From an archaeon (GTDB taxonomy: Archaea > Thermoproteota > Nitrososphaeria > Nitrososphaerales > Nitrosopumilaceae), in assembly GCA_024276695.1 (NCBI GenBank), contig JAJRWR010000007.1:1-55978 (forward strand): a stretch of DNA of 55,978 nt, read 5' to 3'. The position numbers and the translations under genes were made by a program. Below the pieces are notes generated by a model. That model searched no databases. It had not been told where the DNA came from and saw nothing but the letters and a program-made list of their open reading frames with translations. Shown in pieces: positions 1-49,730 of this stretch (positions are counted from its first letter, which is position 1; each line of letters starts with the position of its first letter).

Positions 1-549
1 CATCTTCTCAGAATGAAGATGCAACATAAAGTTGCTGCACACCTTTCGAAAGGTGAAGATGGCAACGCTAAACGACCTAGAGCCGTCAATTGCGTTTCCA
101 ACGCTGTAGCCAAGGTGCACATAGTCGCCCTCACCTGTAATGTCTACGTCTTCTTTGAAGACATACAGTGCTGACATGCTTGCAAGGTTCTTGCTTGCCA
201 TTACATGTTCATGTACTTCGTACTTGCAGAACCACTGTCGGTCATCAAAGACAAATGGTCTGGCATCAAGTCTTTGTGCAATATTATCTGCCTTTTCGAT
301 GACAAGCTCGTTTGGAAGTACCTGATATCTGCTTGAGAGAATTGCAATTGGATCTCCTTTTCTCTCAATGAATTGGTACTTGTTCCAATCCTTGCCGTTT
401 GCCTCTATGTTGTATGTCTTGATTCCGTATTTTCTAAAACTATCCTTTGTCTTGATGGACAGTTTGCTTCGCTTGTTTGCTTTGTAGATGTTTTGTTTGT
501 CAGAAACAATTCTGTTTGTTTTGTTTTGTGTTTGGTTTGTTTGTTCCAT
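1..549 (-). CDS. DUF932-like plasmid/phage protein, truncated by window edge
   Basis: An open frame runs leftward from ATG at 549 to base 1 without a stop: 183 codons are visible and the C-terminus lies outside. A GGAGG ribosome-binding site (561-565 as CCTCC) sits about 11 nt upstream of the ATG. Residues 151-160 (GNAIDGSRSF) and 165-173 (FTFRKVCSN) resemble the DUF932/YfjQ core, where an x-DGSxSF motif is followed by VCxN. That family is common on plasmids, phages and integrated elements and its biochemical role is not established. The N-terminus is rich in Asn, Gln, Lys and Thr. Together with the ParM/ParB-like genes to the right it argues for a mobile-element backbone. Family call moderately sure, function unknown. 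Confidence 0.6.
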   Translation of the reverse strand, partial: MEQTNQTQNKTNRIVSDKQNIYKANKRSKLSIKTKDSFRKYGIKTYNIEANGKDWNKYQFIERKGDPIAILSSRYQVLPNELVIEKADNIAQRLDARPFVFDDRQWFCKYEVHEHVMASKNLASMSALYVFKEDVDITGEGDYVHLGYSVGNAIDGSRSFSVAIFTFRKVCSNFMLHLHSEKM

Positions 550-952
550 ATTGGATTCAACCTCCGTCTCTGAAAAGAATCAGAAATGCAGTTTCTGAAT
601 TGCTCAAGTGTTTTGTATAGTCGTCATCTAGTTCGGTCCTGCAAAACATGCAAAACCAAATACTAAAAATTCTAGATGTTGAGAATTTCTCAAAAATAAT
701 TCCATTGTTTGTTGATGGAATTTTATCAAAGCTTTGTGAGCTAGTTGAAGTGAAAAGAGGATCAGTCTTTTCAGAGGATTTTTGACGCTTCTTGTTTGGT
801 CTTTGAATTTTACTACCAAGAATGCAAATTTTTGCAACTTGACAATTTAGCAAGTACTCTGGGGGAGATACTGTTTTTCCTATGCAAATAGGTAATTTTT
901 TGTGTGTTTTTTGCGTTCCGAAGAAGCGTCACATACAAAGAAATGGTTTGGC
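550..952. other. Non-coding or weakly coding gap upstream of the DUF932-like gene
   Basis: No convincing gene is seen in this 400 bp stretch. A leftward frame at 853-557 (TTG start, 98 codons) ends 8 bp before the DUF932-like start and contains a WFCMFC segment. An ATG-started frame overlaps it in another phase, and neither has a recognisable family. The stretch holds the promoter and leader of the DUF932-like gene and runs into the repeat array at 953. Confidence 0.35.
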
Positions 953-1030
953 TTAAGGAGTTGCGGGATCATTCCAATTAGGTTTAAGGAGTTGTGGGAC
1001 TGCATAATTTAGGCTTAAGGAGATGCAAAC
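953..1030. repeat. Three direct repeats with 31-bp spacing (iteron / parC-like)
   Basis: Copies start at 953, 984 and 1015. The first two are TTAAGGAGTTGYGGGA and the third diverges after TTAAGGAG (TTAAGGAGATGCAAAC). Each is preceded by a TTxGGY element. The 31-bp period is about three helical turns, so bound proteins would lie on one face of the DNA. The array lies directly downstream of the actin-like ATPase and its small basic partner and upstream of the DUF932-like gene. That is where a partition-complex centromere (parC) or replication iterons would be expected. The role is inferred from position and geometry. Confidence 0.55.
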
Positions 1031-1040
1031 TTGGATAATT

Positions 1041-1343
1041 TTACCAGTTTTCAAATTTAGAAAGTGACTTGAACCTTTTGGTCGCAGTTTTTTGCGACCG
1101 TAAAACTTTGTTGGTTGCATCAGTCTTTTGTGTGGCAGTATGTTGTACGTCAGTCAAACCTAAAAGTTCTAGAGGATCAATTCCAGTTACATCTATGCTT
1201 TGCAGTAAAAGCTCCAAATCAGGTCTTGCTTTTTTGAGTTTCTTTTTTATTCTGTATCTCAGATCCTTTGCAGCATTCTTTGAGAATGTGGATGGATCCT
1301 CAACAAAGTCTCTTTCTGTTTTACTGAGCATAATCGCTTTCAA
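1041..1343 (-). CDS. Small basic protein, candidate DNA-binding partner of the actin-like ATPase
   Basis: The protein is 100 aa with no recognised family. It starts 4 nt after the actin-like gene's stop, so the two are almost certainly co-translated. A Lys/Arg-rich helix (about residues 28-42, containing RIKKKLKKARPD) is followed by a hydrophobic helix-like stretch (DLELLLQSI, then DPLELLGL), and the C-terminal third is again basic. In type II plasmid partition (parMRC) the gene after parM encodes ParR, a small DNA-binding adaptor that bridges parC repeats to the filament. Size, charge, order and the repeats immediately downstream match that role, but no ParR homology can be claimed by eye. 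It could instead be an unrelated element protein. Confidence 0.5.
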   Translation of the reverse strand: MKAIMLSKTERDFVEDPSTFSKNAAKDLRYRIKKKLKKARPDLELLLQSIDVTGIDPLELLGLTDVQHTATQKTDATNKVLRSQKTATKRFKSLSKFENW

Positions 1344-1346
1344 GTA

Positions 1347-2198
1347 TCATTCTATTTTTGCCAGCTTGTGCAAACCAATTGCATTGCTCATAATTGGAAT
1401 CTTTGGAACTTGAATCTCCATCTTTAGCTTTCTTTGAAGAGATCTTTTCATTCCAGGTATCATGATTCCACCACCAGAAACTACAACATCATAATGATCC
1501 TTCTCATCTAAACTTGACATAATGTTGAATAGTTTGTTTGATAGAATGTCAGTTAGTTTTGCAACATTTTTTCTAATCTCTGAGTTTTGTTTGGTAAATG
1601 TACTTGCCTGCAAATATGAAAACTCGCCAAGACCTTGTGTGATAAAATCAGTTGCCTGAGGTAAGCTCACACCAATTATAGGGTCCTGATTATCAAAGAC
1701 TACAATTTCAGTTGTTCCCTGCCCTATTGACATAATGATTGCATCTTTTTTGTTCATGTCAATCAAGGTTCCTGCAACCTGTGGGACAATTCCACATTTT
1801 TTTAGTTGAATTTGATTTTCGATTATTCTTCTCAGTCGCGTCTTTTCTTTGCGTGCATCATATGGAAGTCCCACAATAATGCTAATTCCTGAATTGTATT
1901 TGTTATCCAAGTTATTTTGTTGCAACCCGATTCTGCAGACTCGATTGATTGCCTCAGATACCAGAGCCTCAAATCCCCGCTGGTTAATTGGCCTTCCTTC
2001 AGAAACGGGTCGGATTATTACAGTATCGGGATACTTGGAAAAATCTCTTGCCTCTTTTCCTACAGCCTCGATTCTGCCTTGAGACTCTTCCCATTTTCCC
2101 ATATCACGATAGGCAAAAAGAGATGGAAAAATCACATGACCATAGTCTGAGACGCATTTTACAAAGCCAGTTCCCACATCAAGTCCTATTGAGACCAC
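1347..2198 (-). CDS. ParM/actin-like ATPase
   Basis: The protein is 283 aa from a GTG start at 2198. Actin/Hsp70-fold motifs are in order: phosphate-1 GLDVGTGFVK (residues 5-14), the segment IIVGLPYDARKEK (107-119), phosphate-2 SIGQGTTEIVVF (157-168) and the adenosine-binding glycine motif SGGGIMIPGM (241-250). At about 280 aa it is shorter than MreB or crenactin and closer to ParM/Alp segregation actins, which form filaments that push replicons apart. It lies between a prepilin peptidase gene (22 nt upstream) and a small basic protein (4 nt downstream). The ATPase-fold call is firm. The segregation role is inferred from the basic partner and the repeat array, and cell-shape or pilus-related roles remain possible. 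Confidence 0.8.
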   Translation of the reverse strand: MVSIGLDVGTGFVKCVSDYGHVIFPSLFAYRDMGKWEESQGRIEAVGKEARDFSKYPDTVIIRPVSEGRPINQRGFEALVSEAINRVCRIGLQQNNLDNKYNSGISIIVGLPYDARKEKTRLRRIIENQIQLKKCGIVPQVAGTLIDMNKKDAIIMSIGQGTTEIVVFDNQDPIIGVSLPQATDFITQGLGEFSYLQASTFTKQNSEIRKNVAKLTDILSNKLFNIMSSLDEKDHYDVVVSGGGIMIPGMKRSLQRKLKMEIQVPKIPIMSNAIGLHKLAKIE

Positions 2199-2220
2199 AC
2201 AAGAAAAATTTCAAAATGAT

Positions 2221-2898
2221 TTAAGATAAATTGCAATTTTGAAGACACACACTAAAAGAAAGATCAAGAGAGATTATTGTGATTATCAAACCTACAAGAC
2301 CAATCAAAAAGAATAGAGTCAAGGGCATTGCAAGTGATACATACACATCATCTTTGGAAAATTCATCATCAGGATCATAACGAAATCTGAACTTTCTTCT
2401 TTCTGATACAATTCTTTCTGCAGGAAAAGTAAATTTTTCACTCTTTGATCTTTTATGTATTAAAAAGAATGCAACAATTCTTCTATACAGTGGTTCATCA
2501 AACTCTTCAAATATTTTATTATTCAAAAAAAGTGTTCTAGAGTTGGCAGCTACATTGTAGATAATACCATAAATTACTGAAATTGTTGTAGCAATTACAA
2601 CCATACTTAGGGGAATGATAAAGTCATGATACGTTGGAAGTATAACAGACAATGATATTAGCGCCAGTGCATCAGCTCCTGCGTACAGTCTGAAAAACCA
2701 AAATGTTGATGCCAGAGTAACACCAACTACCATACTTACAATATCTATGGTATCAGGAAGCTCAACTGTATACAGAATTGCACCTGACCCACCACATACC
2801 AGCCAGATAATATCATGAATATTTCTTTCCTTTACATCATAAAATGCAGCTACTGCAAACATGCTGATTGCAATAATAATTCGAATCTCCTCAGCCAC
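2221..2898 (-). CDS. A24-family prepilin peptidase (archaellin/pilin leader peptidase type)
   Basis: The protein is 225 aa from a GTG start with several membrane segments (about residues 7-20, 33-46, 52-70, 78-108 and 195-215). The two catalytic aspartates of type IV prepilin peptidases are recognisable: D21 in FYDVKERNIHD and D76 in YAGADALAL, the archaeal variant of GxGD. Members cleave the short basic leader of archaellins and type IV pilins at the membrane. No pilin or pilus ATPase gene is visible nearby. Here it is embedded in a run of DNA-segregation-like genes, directly upstream of the actin-like ATPase. It may serve element-encoded pili or host surface structures. Confidence 0.75.
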   Translation of the reverse strand: MAEEIRIIIAISMFAVAAFYDVKERNIHDIIWLVCGGSGAILYTVELPDTIDIVSMVVGVTLASTFWFFRLYAGADALALISLSVILPTYHDFIIPLSMVVIATTISVIYGIIYNVAANSRTLFLNNKIFEEFDEPLYRRIVAFFLIHKRSKSEKFTFPAERIVSERRKFRFRYDPDDEFSKDDVYVSLAMPLTLFFLIGLVGLIITIISLDLSFSVCLQNCNLS

Positions 2899-2975
2899 AT
2901 GACTAAAAAGACATCACAATAAAACCAAAGTTACTCAAAATCTTCATCAAAATTTTGTTGAAGATTATGAGCAGA

Positions 2976-3662
2976 TCAAACTTGAGAAAATTTTGAAAGA
3001 ATTCTCTTGGATTTGTTTATATCCTGTCGCAGTTTTTGGTCCTGCGCTAAGATGTGCTCTCTTCTTGATGGAATTTGCGTAATCCATTTTTGTAGCTCTT
3101 CCAAGTCATCGTGATAATGACGTTTTAGATCCGAAAAGATTCTGGGCATTATTCTCAGGGATTTTTTGGAATATCTTGCTGCCATCTTCTTTGTCTTTAG
3201 CTGCTCAAAGGCAAATCTCAGATTTTCTTGCGAATAGATTCCTTCAAAAATCTCAGCAAACCTGGGATAGACGTAAAATCCTACCAAGTTGCCTTTTTCT
3301 AGTCTTCCCTGCATGCCATACGCATCAGCCAGGGCACACAAACCCAGAAAACTAAGGTTCAGAGTAAGGCCTATTGCAAACCAACGACCCTTCTGGGTTA
3401 AAAAATAAGATTTGCTGTCATCATTTCCCTTAGATGATATCAGTTTTCTGTCCAGCAGATTGAATATGGTTCCTTTCCGTCCTATTTTCTTTAGCCTCAA
3501 TGAATCTTCAATTTCTTGGATATCATAGTTTTTGTCAGGATATAACAGGACAAGGACTTTTGCAGTAATGGAGGATTTTTTGATGTGTCCCCCATGAAAT
3601 ACCATAGCACGTAATCTCTGGATAGTTTCCTTTGTTAATCTGGTATTTTCAGTCAAGGTCAA
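2976..3662 (-). CDS. Winged-helix-like protein of unknown function
   Basis: The protein is 228 aa from a TTG start that overlaps the stop of the ParB-like gene (TTGA), so translation is coupled. The first 100 residues look like a winged-helix DNA-binding domain: helices around TAKVLVLLYPD and DIQEIEDSLRLKKIGRKG, then NLLDRKLIS and a wing ending YFLTQKGRW. The remainder is helical and basic, with no recognised motif. It is the third member of a tightly coupled TFB / ParB-like / wHTH trio, so a replication, segregation or regulatory function for an integrated element is likely. No specific family can be named. Confidence 0.5.
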   Translation of the reverse strand: MTLTENTRLTKETIQRLRAMVFHGGHIKKSSITAKVLVLLYPDKNYDIQEIEDSLRLKKIGRKGTIFNLLDRKLISSKGNDDSKSYFLTQKGRWFAIGLTLNLSFLGLCALADAYGMQGRLEKGNLVGFYVYPRFAEIFEGIYSQENLRFAFEQLKTKKMAARYSKKSLRIMPRIFSDLKRHYHDDLEELQKWITQIPSRREHILAQDQKLRQDINKSKRILSKFSQV

Positions 3663-4795
3663 ATCTTTTGAGAAGCAATTACTACAATTCTTTGATTTTG
3701 ATCTTCAAGATTATCTACAAACTTTTGAAGCTGTTTGCAAGTTCTAAATGACTTGAAATATACGGGGTCCCCAAAATCTAGTTGCAGAAATTTTGCATGC
3801 TTTGAGGGAATCATAAAGACTGGTTCGGAAGAATCACCGCTAATTGATATCACTGTATCGTCTTCTTTTATTTCTGATATGGTGTGATTCTTTGTGTCAA
3901 CTAGAAATTTTGTTCCGTGAGGACACTTTAGTAGTGCACGATTTGGAACGTTACTTATAATCTCTTTTGCTTCATCAATATCTTCTTTTGAATGGACTCT
4001 CCTTACAGCTTGTTCATCTTGATTATTTTTAGAAACAGCAGATTTGTTAGCAGAAGGTTTGGTATCATCACTTAATGAAAATATGATTGGTTCTCTTTCT
4101 TTTACTTCTTTTCTAAATGAGGAGAATGCAATTTCTAGCTGATCAAATGATGGAAAGCTTATCTTGGATTCAGGAGTGTTTGGTGGGATCATTTGAATCA
4201 TCATCTTTACAGATTCGACTTGATCCTGCTCATCTTTGATCTTTCCAATTGCCTCAATGACATAAACTGGTAGGTGCACCATAGAATACTTTGATGCAAG
4301 CTCATCAAGATATCTTTCAAGCAAGAGGTGTGCTTCCTCTGTCAGGTTGACCTTGAATAATCTTGAATACGATTCATTGAGCCAAAGCTTTTTTGGAATC
4401 TCTTCAGAGTCGTAACCATCTTCTTTTAGAAACTCATATGCATCATAAAATTTTAGTGGGTTGATTTGGTTTCTCTGGTTCAATCTTACATGAAGTATTA
4501 CTGCTTCTGTCATGTTTTGCACGTTGTGTAGTTTTGCTCTAATCTTGTCGATTCCAAAGGATCTCAGAGATTCAACTCTTGCGTGGCCATCAACTATAAT
4601 GAGGGTTTTATCATCTGCCAGCTCAGCGACATCTATTGGCGGGATGCTGTCAGGGTCCGTCTTGGCTGTCTTTTTTATCATCTCAATTTGCAGATCAGTG
4701 TGAAGTGTTATTCTGACTGGGCACTCCCTCAATCCTGCCAGAGGAATTAGATCATCTTTTTGCAAGCCCATCTTACTCAATGAATGCTCCTCCAC
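3659..4795 (-). CDS. ParB/Srx-type N-terminal domain protein
   Basis: The protein is 378 aa from a GTG start lying inside the end of the TFB-like gene (23-nt overlap). Residues 15-120 match the ParB-like fold: a strand segment IPLAGLRECPVRIT, a variable loop, then IIVDGHARVESLRSFG (66-81), which corresponds to the ParB GxxR/GHHR CTPase box. Residues 110-150 have helical KFYDAYEFLKEDG-type sequence like the ParB HTH region. The C-terminal half is charged and unassigned. ParB proteins bind centromere sites and partner with ParA. Here no ParA is visible and an actin-like ATPase is encoded instead. It may alternatively be a ParB-type transcriptional regulator. Confidence 0.65.
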   Translation of the reverse strand: MEEHSLSKMGLQKDDLIPLAGLRECPVRITLHTDLQIEMIKKTAKTDPDSIPPIDVAELADDKTLIIVDGHARVESLRSFGIDKIRAKLHNVQNMTEAVILHVRLNQRNQINPLKFYDAYEFLKEDGYDSEEIPKKLWLNESYSRLFKVNLTEEAHLLLERYLDELASKYSMVHLPVYVIEAIGKIKDEQDQVESVKMMIQMIPPNTPESKISFPSFDQLEIAFSSFRKEVKEREPIIFSLSDDTKPSANKSAVSKNNQDEQAVRRVHSKEDIDEAKEIISNVPNRALLKCPHGTKFLVDTKNHTISEIKEDDTVISISGDSSEPVFMIPSKHAKFLQLDFGDPVYFKSFRTCKQLQKFVDNLEDQNQRIVVIASQKI

Positions 4796-5525
4796 GCCTT
4801 CCCAAGGCTATTTGAACTGCCTTGCGAGCCTTGGCCTCATTAGTTCCACTCATGGCATCAAATAGAGCCCTTGCCTTCTTTCGAACCAAATCAAAATCGA
4901 CCTTGAGTTCTAGGTTTTTCTGCTCTCTTGCAAGATACAAATTAAGATAATAGCATTCAGAATTTTTTTCATCTACAGAGTAACTTATGCCAAGACTTTG
5001 GGCAGTCAGCTTTATCCTAGAGAAGACCTTTAGCATTGTTGGGACCCGCTTTACTTTGAAGGACATTCGGATTGCATCTTGAATCTCTTTTTCACTTTTT
5101 GGAATAGAATATCTTTTGGAGGCAGTAAATAGAGCAAAGCTTGCAATCTCTGCCTTTGAATATGTTGTGCTGTGACGAAGCTTAGAGTATGTGTTCCATG
5201 CCTCCAGATAGCAGTATCTTGGAAGGCCAAGCTTGTCACATGCATTTGAGAAAGGAGAGACATCAGATTTGGGTTCATGTGTTCTCTTTGTGAATTCTGC
5301 CTTGACAGGTTGTGTTCCAGGTTCAATCTCGTGGAAAAGATTTAGTGTGCTTTCATTAGCAACTTCCTGCAAGTTATCTGTTCCAAGTACCACGCCGCAT
5401 CTTTTGCAAACAATTTCATAATTTTCTGTTATCACATGATCATCTTTACTGTGAAAACATGCAATTGAAGGAACAGAAATTCCATTGAATCTGTTTTGTT
5501 TAATTGATAGTTCTTCACTCATCAT
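4773..5525 (-). CDS. TFB-like (TFIIB-related) transcription initiation factor, element-associated
   Basis: The protein is 250 aa. The N-terminal zinc-ribbon candidate uses C23 with H25 or H30, then C40-x2-C43 in CKRCGVVLG, so the first ligand pair departs from the usual CxxC. Residues about 95-250 hold cyclin-like repeats (SKAEIASFALFTASKRY; ARKAVQIALGRRGGA). Archaeal TFBs recruit RNA polymerase to TBP-bound promoters, and thaumarchaea carry several paralogs. It is shorter than housekeeping TFBs (about 300 aa) and the second cyclin repeat looks degenerate. Its start overlaps the upstream small Cys protein's stop (ATGA type), so the genes are coupled. It may direct transcription of element genes. 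Confidence 0.65.
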   Translation of the reverse strand: MMSEELSIKQNRFNGISVPSIACFHSKDDHVITENYEIVCKRCGVVLGTDNLQEVANESTLNLFHEIEPGTQPVKAEFTKRTHEPKSDVSPFSNACDKLGLPRYCYLEAWNTYSKLRHSTTYSKAEIASFALFTASKRYSIPKSEKEIQDAIRMSFKVKRVPTMLKVFSRIKLTAQSLGISYSVDEKNSECYYLNLYLAREQKNLELKVDFDLVRKKARALFDAMSGTNEAKARKAVQIALGRRGGAFIE

Positions 5526-5902
5526 AGCAATTCCCTCAAAATTAGTTCAACTGATGGTTTTGCATCAGATTTGTTGTCCTCTTTACAGTGATTTTCTAGA
5601 AACTTTTCTGATTCTTCCATTATGATTTTGTATTTGGCTAATCTCTCATGGATTTTATTTCGAAATTCATCTTCGTTTTCTAGCTTGAATTTGGTTGGTA
5701 AATTTGTCTTGTTATCATCATTGGTTGACTGGAAATTATTGTGCTCGTTTCTTTCCTCAACTCTTTTTCTCACTTGAGTTTCAAAGCATCTTTGCTCAAT
5801 GCACATTGCTCTAGTATCAGGATCATAATGAATCTGCTCGTCAATCTTCCATTCTTTTTTGCATTCCCGACATGAAGAATTTCTGTTACTTGAGATTCTC
5901 AT
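5522..5902 (-). CDS. Small Cys-motif (zinc-finger-like) protein
   Basis: The protein is 126 aa. N-terminal cysteines C11-x2-C14 and C34/C39 could form one zinc site. The rest is highly charged, with a helical segment RNKIHERLAKYKIIMEES and a C-terminal VELILRELL. No family is recognised. It is the first gene of the leftward run and its stop overlaps the start of the TFB-like gene, so it probably belongs to the same transcript. The promoter must lie in the palindrome-rich spacer at 5903-6142. A DNA-binding or adaptor role is plausible but unproven. Confidence 0.5.
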   Translation of the reverse strand: MRISSNRNSSCRECKKEWKIDEQIHYDPDTRAMCIEQRCFETQVRKRVEERNEHNNFQSTNDDNKTNLPTKFKLENEDEFRNKIHERLAKYKIIMEESEKFLENHCKEDNKSDAKPSVELILRELL

Positions 5903-6142: not shown

Positions 6143-6490
6143 TTGGTTCAGTCAAGAAGACATAATCTCACAGTAACTTCTGAGATCTATGATCGTGTTG
6201 CCAAAATATACAAGAAAGAAAAAACAGACAAGAGTCTGACGCAATGGGTTAGCTACAAATTACTGTTGGCGCTAGAAAAAGACAACTTTTTGAAAAGCTA
6301 TGCTCCATTTCTTAACAAGATTACAATTAATGGAAACAGTGTCATTATACGGGATGAAAAGATACAAAGACTTGTAGAAGTCATATATCGTGACAACAAA
6401 TTCTGGTGCGATGTTGATGAAGAAGAGTGCTGCGTTCATGTACACTTTGCATTGGCGCTTCCAGAGTTGGCAGAATTACAAAATAAATAA
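6143..6490 (+). CDS. Ribbon-helix-helix-like small regulator
   Basis: The protein is 115 aa from a TTG start. The N-terminus (QSRRHNLTVTSEIYDRVAKIYKKEK) reads like a ribbon-helix-helix repressor: a basic beta strand, then helix A with DRVAKIYK, then a second helix ending in SYKLLLALEKD. The C-terminal half (NSVIIRDEKIQRLVEVIYRD, DVDEEECCVHVHFALAL) is unassigned and carries adjacent Cys-Cys and His residues. It is divergent to the accessory operon across two palindromes, so an autoregulator of that spacer is a reasonable guess. It converges with the HEPN gene (10 bp gap). The family call is from pattern only. Confidence 0.5.
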   Translation: MVQSRRHNLTVTSEIYDRVAKIYKKEKTDKSLTQWVSYKLLLALEKDNFLKSYAPFLNKITINGNSVIIRDEKIQRLVEVIYRDNKFWCDVDEEECCVHVHFALALPELAELQNK

Positions 6491-6499
6491 TTGTAATTA

Positions 6500-7651
6500 C
6501 TAAATTGTTATAGAATATTCTTTCTTAAACAAGGTTTTAACATCAGTGTATTTTTTAGATAAGTGGATATATTCAAAAATCAAAGTTCGTAATAATTCAT
6601 GAGTTGTACCAACATCTTCTTTATCTACGATTAACTTTCCTGCATGTATTGCACCACTTCTTATGTCATAATATTGTTCCAATAAATTCTTGTAAAATGT
6701 ATGATTTTTTCTATCCCCCTTGCTAAAAATTATTGCGATTCTTTCTGCCATGCGTTTTCGTTTATCGTACTTATTATCAAAAATCACAAGGTTTTCTAAC
6801 CCATAAGTATATTTCAGGAATTTAGATAGTTCATCTTCGGTTTCCTTACCAGCATCACCATACCAATATAACGTACTGAGAATTATGGATTGTACTTCAT
6901 TCAAATTTTCAGAAAAAAGGAATGTTTTAAGCTTGTTCCAATATGGAGTGATTTTTTTCCAATATTCATTGGTCCTCCAAATGTGCGCATTTAAGTGAAG
7001 ACTTGAAAATGACGCAGAAAAAGTATTTGTATCTAGATTTACTATCAAGTAATGAAATTTTGTTTCAGGAAAATGATATTCTCTTTCTGTAATCCCCGAT
7101 GGAGGATCAAATAATCTCATAGCATGAATTAATCGTTTTAGGTTTGAATTAGCAAGAAACATTCCCTGTTCTTTGTCTTTTGCTTGAACTTCTACAATAG
7201 CAAAAACTTCTGTTTTATTTAATGAGGTTAAATCCTTCAGAGTTTCTTTGGCAGAGAAATGCCCTGTTTGTTTTCTAAATGAGGCTAATTTTCTTAACTT
7301 TGTTAAATTTAGTTTTTTTAACTTGACCTTTCCAAAATCTAGATCCTTACGATAATCTACATTGTTGACAGGTAGAATGAAACGGAAATTTGTAATAGGT
7401 AATTCTTTCAGATTTTCTAACCAATTCTTAATACTTTGCCCCATAACACCATATTTTTTTCTATCAATTTTAAGTTGATAAATAAATTCTTCAAGTTCAT
7501 TAGAAATGAAATCATCAGATAGTTTTATTTTCCAGTTTTTTGATTTTTGCCTTACAAACTGTATTACCTTTAACCAATAATAATCTGATTCAAAGGGTAT
7601 ACAGATTGTATTATTTTCTTGGGGTTTATGCAGAACTTTTGACATTTTCAT
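6500..7651 (-). CDS. ApeA-like HEPN-domain protein, possible defence RNase
   Basis: The protein is 383 aa. The C-terminal 100 residues are helical and contain YYDIRSGAIHAGKL, giving the HEPN RNase signature R331-x4-H336. The wording IRSGAIHAG matches the Apea-like HEPN group (Y-x-x-RS-x-I-x-H-G). The N-terminal 230 residues are a separate domain with no clear motif, as in ApeA proteins with a large target-sensing region. HEPN RNases act in abortive anti-phage defence and toxin systems. The frame remains open about 45 codons upstream of the assigned ATG but has no ATG, GTG or TTG there, so the N-terminus may be decayed or the gene 5'-truncated. Confidence 0.6.
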   Translation of the reverse strand: MKMSKVLHKPQENNTICIPFESDYYWLKVIQFVRQKSKNWKIKLSDDFISNELEEFIYQLKIDRKKYGVMGQSIKNWLENLKELPITNFRFILPVNNVDYRKDLDFGKVKLKKLNLTKLRKLASFRKQTGHFSAKETLKDLTSLNKTEVFAIVEVQAKDKEQGMFLANSNLKRLIHAMRLFDPPSGITEREYHFPETKFHYLIVNLDTNTFSASFSSLHLNAHIWRTNEYWKKITPYWNKLKTFLFSENLNEVQSIILSTLYWYGDAGKETEDELSKFLKYTYGLENLVIFDNKYDKRKRMAERIAIIFSKGDRKNHTFYKNLLEQYYDIRSGAIHAGKLIVDKEDVGTTHELLRTLIFEYIHLSKKYTDVKTLFKKEYSITI

Positions 7652-8165
7652 TTTATCAAATTTCTTGGGATTTAGAAGAGTAAGATCTGTAATTTTTTTA
7701 ATATTTGAAACTGTTTTAGAAACAGAGATATTCGTTGTTACTATTTTGTCATCACACCTTGTTCTAAGATCAGATTAGATGGATTTCTTTGTTTTGAATA
7801 TCTTTAGACAGTATTTAGATTGTTCAAAATTTTATTGGTTTTTATTACTTGTAATCCATTAATCATAATCAGATAGTGGTTTTAAGCAGCATTTCCAAAC
7901 ATTACATGAAAATCTCTTGAAAGAGCAAAGATTCAGAAGTGATTCGTTACTTGTGAATCACGGACACCATTAGGTCCATGAAATCATTACAACATTAGTG
8001 ATTAAAAATTAAAGAACTCTTTCCAGTTGTAATTATTTCAAACAACATAGAAAACAATTTCAGTTTTTGAGAATCGTCAAAACCTTGCCCAATTTAGGCG
8101 CAAAATTTTGGCATTATTTGTTCATTGAGAGCTCTTAAATACGTGAAGCTCTTTTTAAATGAATC
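7652..8165. other. 514-bp intergenic region with three consecutive hairpins
   Basis: No gene is seen. The right part of the gap has three back-to-back stem-loops: GTGATTC/GAATCAC (7938-7960, 9-nt loop), GGAC/GTCC (7961-7976) and AATCATTA/TTAGTGATT (7982-8003, one G-U pair). Arms 1 and 3 share the GTGATT word. The left part contains the open, start-less extension of the HEPN frame. It could be a small structured RNA or the scar of an insertion. Confidence 0.4.
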
Positions 8166-8717
8166 TCAGGATTTTAGGCAATCTCGAATCTGTTTTAGTA
8201 TTCTTGCAGAAGCTCCCCACACGATTTGATTTTCATATTCAAAAGTGTACATTTCTTGAATAAGATTATGAGATGGATCAGGATCCCTTGCTTGGGTTTT
8301 TAAGAATGATTCTAGAGGAATATGAAAAATTTTTTCGACTTCAGCATTAGCTGAGAGCACAGGAATTTTATCAACGATTGAGATAAAAGGTAAAATTAAA
8401 AAACCAGAATTCAATGTAACCACCGGTTCTAGTTGACCAATCACTTGTTCTTTAGAAATTGAAAGTCCAATCTCCTCACGGGTTTCACGTAAAGCAGTTT
8501 CTAAAAGATCTAAATCATCAGAATCTAGTTTTCCACCGGGAAATGAAATTTCTCCAGCATGAAATTTCATATGTTTCGGTTTTTCAGTCATTATGACAAT
8601 TGGTTCAGTCCCATAAATTACCACAAGGATTGATGCCAAACGATACTTTTCATTATTTTCTATTCTTGGATTGATAGAGGTAGAAAGGAAGGATTTTAAA
8701 TCATCTAATAACACCAT
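8166..8717 (-). CDS. Nudix hydrolase, CoA-pyrophosphatase type
   Basis: The protein is 183 aa. A full Nudix box spans residues 61-85 (GGKLD...ETALRETREEIGL), giving the Gx5Ex7REUxEExGU pattern that binds Mg2+. The preceding segment HAGEISFPGG (53-62) is characteristic of the CoA diphosphatase group (NudL/PCD1, UPF0035), which cleave CoA and its derivatives to phosphopantetheine and 3',5'-ADP. The gene is a single unit with its own short upstream region, divergent to the MTHFR-like gene. The Nudix call is firm and the substrate comes from the motif only. Confidence 0.85.
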   Translation of the reverse strand: MVLLDDLKSFLSTSINPRIENNEKYRLASILVVIYGTEPIVIMTEKPKHMKFHAGEISFPGGKLDSDDLDLLETALRETREEIGLSISKEQVIGQLEPVVTLNSGFLILPFISIVDKIPVLSANAEVEKIFHIPLESFLKTQARDPDPSHNLIQEMYTFEYENQIVWGASARILKQIRDCLKS

Positions 8718-48810: not shown

Positions 48811-49730
48811 ATGATTAGGGCACCTATAGTTCAAAAGTATGGTTTTAGAAAAAAAAATACTTCATGTATGGATAGTAATACAATTACCGATATTAATACA
48901 GGAGAAATGATTTGTCAAAAGTGTGGCATTGTTTTACAAGATACAGACTCATACGACAGAAGAGACGACATAGCTACAAAAAGTATCAAAGTTGATCAGG
49001 TTGGCAATAGATCATCGCTCAGGTTTCATGACATGGGTCTTGCAACAGTTATTAACAAATTCAATCATGACTCTAAAGGAAAACCCATTGCTTACAAAAT
49101 AAGACAAGATATGCACAGAATGAGATTGTGGGATTCAAGGAGTAAGGCAAAAAACTCTTCAGATCGAAATCTAAGAACTGCTTTATCTGAGATGGATAAA
49201 TTAAAAGAAAAATTATCTTTGTCAGATGCCATTATGGAAAGATCGGCATATCTCTACAGAAAAGCTTCCAAGGCACAATTAATCAGAGGTAGAAAAATTA
49301 ATGGAATACTTGGGGCATGTGTGTATGTAGCATGTAGGGAGATGGATGTACCACGTACAATCATAGATATTTCAAAAAGTCTGCAAGAAAGTAGAGGTTC
49401 GATTGCAAAAAACTATAGAATGTTATTTAACAATCTTAAGATATCTGTATCTGTACAAGATCCAATAAAATGTATTGTAAAAATTGCAAATAATTTAGAA
49501 ATTCCTGAAAATACAACACGAGAAGCTATACATATTTTAGATGCTCTAAAAGAGCGAAGATTAACTGCAGGGAAAAACCTGATGCAGTTGCAGCTACTAT
49601 AATCTATATGGCATGTATCAAAACAGGAATAAATTTATCTCAACAAAAGATTTCAAAAGTATCTGGAATAACAGGAGTAACTATTCGCAATCGCTACAAT
49701 GACTATTTGAAATATGTTAAATTAATTTAA
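48811..49730 (+). pseudogene. TFB transcription initiation factor, broken by a one-base frameshift
   Basis: This is a TFIIB-type factor: a zinc ribbon CQKCGIVLQD (its first pair reads C-x-x-S, so one Cys is replaced by Ser), the B-linker region (FHDMGLATVINKFN), then two cyclin repeats (GACVYVACREMDVPRTIIDIS for the first). The frame stops at 49602 after LTAGKNLMQL. Adding one base in the A5CC run at 49573-49579 restores LTAGKNPDAVAATIIYMAC and 49 further codons to TAA 49728-49730, ending RYNDYLKYVKLI, a normal TFB end. A base-call error is likely. Full length would be about 306 aa. Confidence 0.82.

Follow-up and report, generated by a model that had tools for sequence, protein, structure and literature searches.

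An actin and basic-protein cassette in the TFB-ParB operon of thaumarchaeal integrative and conjugative elements, with a conserved candidate cis site

The DNA analyzed here, which we call the window, is a stretch of 55,978 nucleotides from a Nitrosopumilaceae archaeon (assembly GCA_024276695.1, contig JAJRWR010000007.1); it is an entire contig (G000:C36) of a source genome of 1.56 Mb in 41 contigs. One end of the window belongs to an integrative and conjugative element (ICE) with a seven-gene operon that joins a TFB-like factor, a ParB-like protein and a prepilin peptidase to an actin-fold ATPase and a small basic protein (BAS). We propose, with a probability of about two in three, that this operon is a control and maintenance module of the ICE, in which the actin and BAS serve the segregation, and perhaps the transfer, of the excised element. 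Half of this was already known, namely the core of TFB, ParB and winged helix-turn-helix (wHTH) genes in such ICEs; as far as we searched, the actin-BAS pair, its cis site, the small elements that share this site and a candidate RNA are new.

The seven open reading frames (ORFs) are all present on the minus strand between positions 1041 and 5902 and are tightly packed, in the order Cys protein, TFB-like, ParB-like, wHTH, A24 peptidase, actin, and BAS. Overlaps of 4, 23, and 4 nt join Cys to TFB, TFB to ParB, and ParB to wHTH, and gaps of 77 and 22 nt separate wHTH from A24 and A24 from actin. Between actin and BAS, the gap is 3 nt if BAS starts at the TTG at 1343, or 15 nt with the ATG at 1331, the start favored by homology. 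The same genome has the operon a second time, at the end of contig C9 (C9:70261-78000), with 83%–85% DNA identity; the two copies share 91% protein identity in actin and 73% in ParB, and 59% and 74% DNA identity in wHTH and ParB, respectively. Because of this second copy and the recurrence of the order in other genera, the arrangement is not a product of chance, and the seven coupled genes in one direction described in the initial annotation are confirmed. C36 and C9 both break off within a DUF932 gene, at nearly the same position, which is what a collapsed repeat would give; in the window, the contig end truncates this gene and leaves its start (1–549, minus strand). A test for contigs whose ends overlap C36 found an end common to C9 only.

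The actin gene (1347–2198, minus strand) encodes a protein of 283 aa, the proposed partition motor. It matched Pfam MreB_Mbl (2.6e-10) and, from residue 2 to 282, which is its whole length, the PHROG 691 family "partition protein" (6.2e-12). Its AlphaFold model (pLDDT 90.7) predicts an actin fold: a fold search matched MreB, MamK and actin, with Z of 28–29 for MreB/MamK, and the comparison with MamK gave Z 29.1 and a root-mean-square deviation of 2.6 over 266 residues. ParM, AlfA and Ta0583 were not among the fold matches listed. BAS (1041–1343, minus strand, start probably 1331; ~11.0 kDa, pI 9.8) is a candidate adaptor of the ParR/SrpR kind. The window protein had no convincing family match in Pfam, NCBIfam or PHROG, and its model shows confident helices at residues 8–15 and 22–48 followed by a low-confidence tail. 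At 16 of the 30 actin loci, among them loci without ParB, the BAS gene comes after actin.

Directly after the BAS stop codon there are three iterons with a 31-bp period and the core CTCCTTAAGCC (947–1030, minus strand). They are part of a conserved non-coding block of 250 nt (791–1040), a candidate centromere or transfer site, which is 94% identical to C9 and 82% identical to a third contig, C12. Between the window and C12, the identity is 64% in BAS and 49% in the 230 nt that follow the block; since the block is more identical than either, it is itself under constraint. No intact actin is present at the C12 locus (L089:2633-6900), which has an integrase gene, the 3' end of an actin gene, an open BAS frame, two degenerate palindromes of 24 bp and the iteron block; within the source genome, it is a candidate remnant or satellite.

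That the operon belongs to an ICE is argued by an empty insertion site, a sporadic and multi-copy distribution, and linkage to genes of a type IV secretion system (T4SS) and type IV pilus, which bear out the integrated-element backbone suggested at first. Homology to the chromosomes of relatives stops at ~8147, which puts the right end of the integrated element at roughly 8125–8147 and makes positions 1 to ~8130 element DNA. At least six relatives have, directly after their copy of the NUDIX gene found at 8166–8717 of the window, a short basic gene and a gene with an acidic tail, which we read by eye as ribosomal proteins L39e/L31e. This neighbor is missing in the window, and C9 begins inside acidic repeats resembling the NUDIX-neighbor gene of the relatives. 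The insertion site beside the window operon is empty in the relatives, and the operon lies in an integrated element.

The complete genome G179 has two large ICEs, which share a syntenic set with each other and with G189: TFB (uncalled in G189), ParB, wHTH, actin, ArdC-like, VirB6-like, A24, T2SSF/TadC, a T2SSE ATPase, and a TraG/VirB4-type ATPase; the set common to the two G179 elements also includes BAS. In both G179 and G189, the T4SS and pilus genes are on contiguous DNA with the element. A Pfam search identified no VirD4-type ATPase in G179. In the source genome, orthologues of T2SSE, TadC and the VirB6-like gene were found on contig C2.

Actin was present in 30 of the 250 genomes of the family and ParB in 39, with a sporadic distribution and multiple copies in a genome; a single genome had up to seven match places. 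In a set of 400 genomes from the order, actin was confined to Nitrosopumilaceae. A scan of ~85,000 species, seeded with a pattern, returned 34 loci with titles naming Nitrosopumilus, Nitrosotalea, and other Thaumarchaeota/Nitrosopumilaceae; the one exception was a bin labelled gammaproteobacterial, which we take to be mis-binned. The search for actin in free plasmids, phages, and viral contigs gave no matches, so that the free-plasmid occurrence raised at the outset was not found.

The gene-order comparison covered ~40 loci around these genes, with all ORFs clustered. The core order TFB-ParB-wHTH-(A24)-actin-BAS is found again, with a sporadic distribution, in genomes of the Nitrosopumilus and Nitrosotalea types, so it is kept beyond the strain. 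The order of the window's clade, with the Cys gene in front of TFB and A24 before actin, was found in both copies of the source genome, in G102 as far as actin at the contig end, and in G122 over two contigs. The Nitrosotalea-type order is TFB-ParB-wHTH-actin-BAS, in some cases with inserted genes or with one gene missing or uncalled; there A24, where found, is farther downstream, between the VirB6-like and TadC genes. TFB and ParB are contiguous in the TFB-bearing loci. L063 and L085, as well as L064, from two further genera, have TFB-ParB-wHTH-A24 without actin, and there are actin loci without ParB, several of which keep BAS (L069, L072, L074, L084). Because each occurs without the other, TFB-ParB-wHTH(-A24) is one module and actin-BAS another, and the two often occur together. 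In L077 and L078 (both of G161), the order is ParB, A24, actin and then an ATPase of ~1000 aa, TraG/VirD4-like by reading, an arrangement that suggests a link of the actin to a coupling protein.

Among the closest known systems is srpMRC of the SXT/R391 ICEs, which has an actin-like SrpM, a small basic SrpR without a recognizable domain and the repeats srpC bound by SrpR, and which is functional in stability assays (PMC4489591). Both cassettes are ICE-borne and consist of an actin-like ATPase, a downstream basic protein of ~10 kDa without a recognizable domain, and adjacent intergenic repeats. They differ in that the one described here is in an archaeal host, has an actin that scores below the ParM cut-off, has its cis DNA downstream and is joined to TFB-ParB-wHTH, with a pilin peptidase added in some lineages. 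The type II partition system ParMRC of plasmid R1 has the same three-part layout of actin, small basic protein and repeats, although the archaeal actin is closer to MreB/MamK in both profile and fold, and BAS is not an evident ribbon-helix-helix protein. Judged as a type II system, the operon has an actin-fold ATPase (predicted fold), a small basic gene adjoining it (candidate adaptor) and, as candidate centromere sites, conserved iterons or palindromes adjoining BAS.

The segregation reading is based on this match to the SrpMRC anatomy and on the PHROG partition match over the whole actin. From the cassette anatomy we infer self-segregation, and we likewise infer DNA binding by BAS, filament formation, and their timing. 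On excision, BAS would bind, as ParR or SrpR do, the conserved DNA just downstream of its own gene, and an ATP-driven actin filament would move or anchor the BAS-bound DNA. The excised, low-copy circular ICE would then be inherited and be available for transfer. TFB, ParB, and wHTH would control expression or organize the DNA, and the A24 peptidase would process the pilins of the ICE conjugation pilus.

Several observations weigh against this proposal. The actin scored 17.7 bits against the NCBIfam ParM model (cut-off 417), and its best matches were MreB/MamK; the name "ParM-like" given to it initially fits its context and does not stand for a demonstrated family membership. BAS has no recognizable DNA-binding family and a model that is confident only in part, and it is missing at some actin loci. 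Some ICEs carry TFB-ParB without actin. The cis DNA is downstream of the actin-BAS pair, and not upstream as in R1/SXT. Finally, the window element is cut by contig ends, and its conjugation genes are linked by orthology only, as C2 is not physically joined to it.

In Nitrosotalea-type elements, the region after actin has two near-identical 18-bp palindromes, ATTACRGAATTCYGTAAT, 261–272 bp apart, the first of which is inside BAS. The pattern ATTACNGAATTCNGTAAT occurred in the 250 genomes only as such pairs, plus a lone site in G009, and the pair had no occurrence in viral contigs. Three pairs were found away from actin, in a stretch of ~4.4 kb: G187:C2 (L159:7229-11601), G198:C317, and G205:C203 (the latter two L160 and L161). 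This stretch has its own integrase (the G205 contig stops before it) and no actin, BAS, ParB or conjugation genes, and its right flank is kept in most genomes of the genus. It shares with the ICE a block of ~430 bp with 82%–87% identity, which begins at the first palindrome and in which the BAS frame is lost, in addition to a non-coding stretch of ~120–175 bp and a few short matches. The two non-coding ICE blocks adjoin each other in the ~4.4-kb stretch. A block kept in small integrase-bearing stretches without actin, ParB or conjugation genes is the pattern expected if ICE products act on it in trans, and it suggests that these stretches may hijack the ICE through the shared block.

The Nitrosotalea block also contains a candidate structured RNA of ~330 nt on the operon strand (L050:11477-11830 and homologues, A8), with no Rfam match. 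The fold of 12 sequences on this strand has 45 pairs in eight helices, with 93.3% of the cells paired and 14 pairs changed on both sides. Its covariation score of 0.229 was reached by 0 of 500 shuffles, versions slid along the alignment scored 0.04–0.06, and L050 folded with a z of −5.3 against dinucleotide shuffles; these statistics are inflated, because the structure was derived from the same alignment and the sequences are related. The stronger points are that the reverse strand folds much less well in most sequences and that the covariance model (R1) matched L053, outside the training set, at 4.4e-13. Since a conserved DNA dyad would covary too, we consider the RNA probable, not proven. 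The same model had no match in the window, where block 791–1040 was rejected as a structured RNA (z −0.09). Rfam had no match in the window region and matched only a tRNA in the loci of the relatives. A fuller version of our proposal, an ICE actin cassette for segregation or transfer with a cis block (in Nitrosotalea a new structured RNA) that is pirated by integrase-bearing satellites of ~4.4 kb, is put forward tentatively, at somewhat less than even odds.

The TFB-like factor (4773–5525, minus strand; 250 aa; conserved family A5) is divergent, with a zinc ribbon and a cyclin-like repeat. It scored 19.9 bits (7.8e-4) against Pfam TFIIB, below the curated cut-off of 23.6, its zinc ribbon had 17.6 bits (cut-off 29), and a PDB TFIIB profile gave 4e-4; these low scores are weak but consistent and point to a TFB. 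A separate TFB-like gene, read from its translation alone (263 aa, zinc ribbon), is located outside the element at 48811–49602. The ParB-like protein (3659–4795, minus strand; 378 aa) has an N-terminal ParB/Srx-type domain by its PHROG ParB-like match (4.7e-8). It does not qualify as a canonical ParB (18.8 bits against NCBIfam TIGR00180, cut-off 58.45), and profiles other than PHROG were weak (PDB ParB/sulfiredoxin, 0.012). There is no ParA-like gene among the seven operon genes, as a canonical ParABS operon would have. The wHTH gene (2976–3662, minus strand; 228 aa; weak profile matches) is immediately 3' of ParB at every locus where it was called. Between wHTH and A24 there is a palindrome (2934–2971) whose core 24-mer is also on C2 and, in degenerate form, on C12; in the C9 copy, another palindrome is found in this gap (L011:11784-11890). 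It is a candidate operator that may co-diverge with its binder.

These features can be read in another way: the ParB-like protein and TFB would chiefly act as a gene switch, in which a clamp of the ParB fold and a dedicated TFB activate the ICE genes, and the actin would be cargo of the same transcript, unrelated to them. The ParB-fold proteins BisD and VirB of bacterial ICEs and virulence plasmids do regulate genes (PMC12704722), several ICEs have TFB-ParB-wHTH without actin, and the palindrome after wHTH differs between C36 and C9, where wHTH and ParB have diverged to the DNA identities given above. As a whole we find this account doubtful, as it leaves the recurring actin-BAS-cis cassette unexplained and has no element-wide promoter motif behind it with the one candidate tried; its gene-switch half is compatible with our proposal. 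That candidate, an ICE-specific TFB promoter "CTCCTTAWA", was rejected: it was not enriched in ICEs, with at most one site per element.

Another possibility is that actin-BAS and the cis block serve DNA transfer and not segregation, the block being an origin of transfer (oriT) or site of single-strand initiation and the actin positioning the element at the mating apparatus. Bacterial mobilizable elements carry oriT in a way comparable to the small integrase-bearing stretches, which have the block without actin, BAS, or ParB. The Nitrosotalea block borders genes like those of a leading region (SWIM, ArdC antirestriction), and a fold specific to one strand would be in keeping with a single-stranded form, DNA or RNA. 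The fragment bound by SrpR in SXT/R391 is the intergenic region between srpM and mobI, where oriT was also probed (PMC4489591). We nevertheless regard this as unlikely, because no relaxase has been recognized in thaumarchaeal ICEs (PMC6563490) and none was seen in our analysis, and because the window's own block is unstructured.

The alternative offered in the initial annotation, a system of the host that connects surface pili with the movement of DNA, has in its favor that the peptidase and actin genes are adjacent in the window. It is hardly credible given the sporadic multi-copy distribution, the empty site, the ICE linkage, and the place of the same peptidase between the VirB6-like and TadC genes in Nitrosotalea ICEs.

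The A24 gene (2221–2898, minus strand) encodes an A24B peptidase of the FlaK/PibD type, with a near whole-length match of the family profile to FlaK (3s0x, 6.9e-13) and invariant catalytic Asp positions D21 and D76 in the family alignment; it differs from FlaK/PibD in being ICE-encoded. The two A24 genes of this family found in the source genome are both inside operon copies. Krupovic et al. (2019, PMC6563490) report a TFIIB homologue in every thaumarchaeal ICE, mostly immediately upstream of a ParB-like gene, and count a prepilin peptidase, TadC, and VirB6 among the conserved components. Because TFB-ParB and a prepilin peptidase are already described there, the peptidase belongs to the conjugation pilus and not to a host system, and the initial view that no archaeal module with this set had been described was too broad. 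The window's element and its relatives share with those ICEs the TFB upstream of ParB, the peptidase, TadC, VirB6, the VirB4-type ATPase, the pilus ATPase and the empty site in relatives; the operon adds actin and BAS, the conserved cis block, and the small elements sharing it. The main text of PMC6563490 has 0 occurrences of the word actin and does not mention the basic protein. No archaeal ICE actin was found in the literature searched, whose coverage left out most subscription journals and supplements. Within it, the recurrent presence of actin and ParB-like genes in the same operon, rightly singled out as unusual, was not previously described.

Three further genes belong to this end of the window. 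The first operon gene (5522–5902, minus strand) encodes the Cys protein, which is zinc-ribbon-like, has 126 aa and is confined to the window's own clade (four loci). A divergent small protein (6143–6490, plus strand), is ribbon-helix-helix-like by eye and has no Pfam match; in 17 loci, a homologue is encoded next to, or close to, the operon or actin. The last gene before the element boundary (6500–7651, minus strand) encodes a protein of 383 aa of no recognized family.

How archaeal conjugative elements segregate and select DNA for transfer can now be addressed with specific candidates for the motor (the actin), the adaptor (BAS) and the cis site, and with an RNA that may be new. The presence of the cis site in unrelated small elements narrows it to a few hundred bases. 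If our proposal is true, actin-based ICE partition, described for SXT/R391, would extend to archaea; if its fuller version is true as well, an archaeal conjugative element would be hijacked through a shared actin-linked site. The parts are few and small, which makes the question directly testable.

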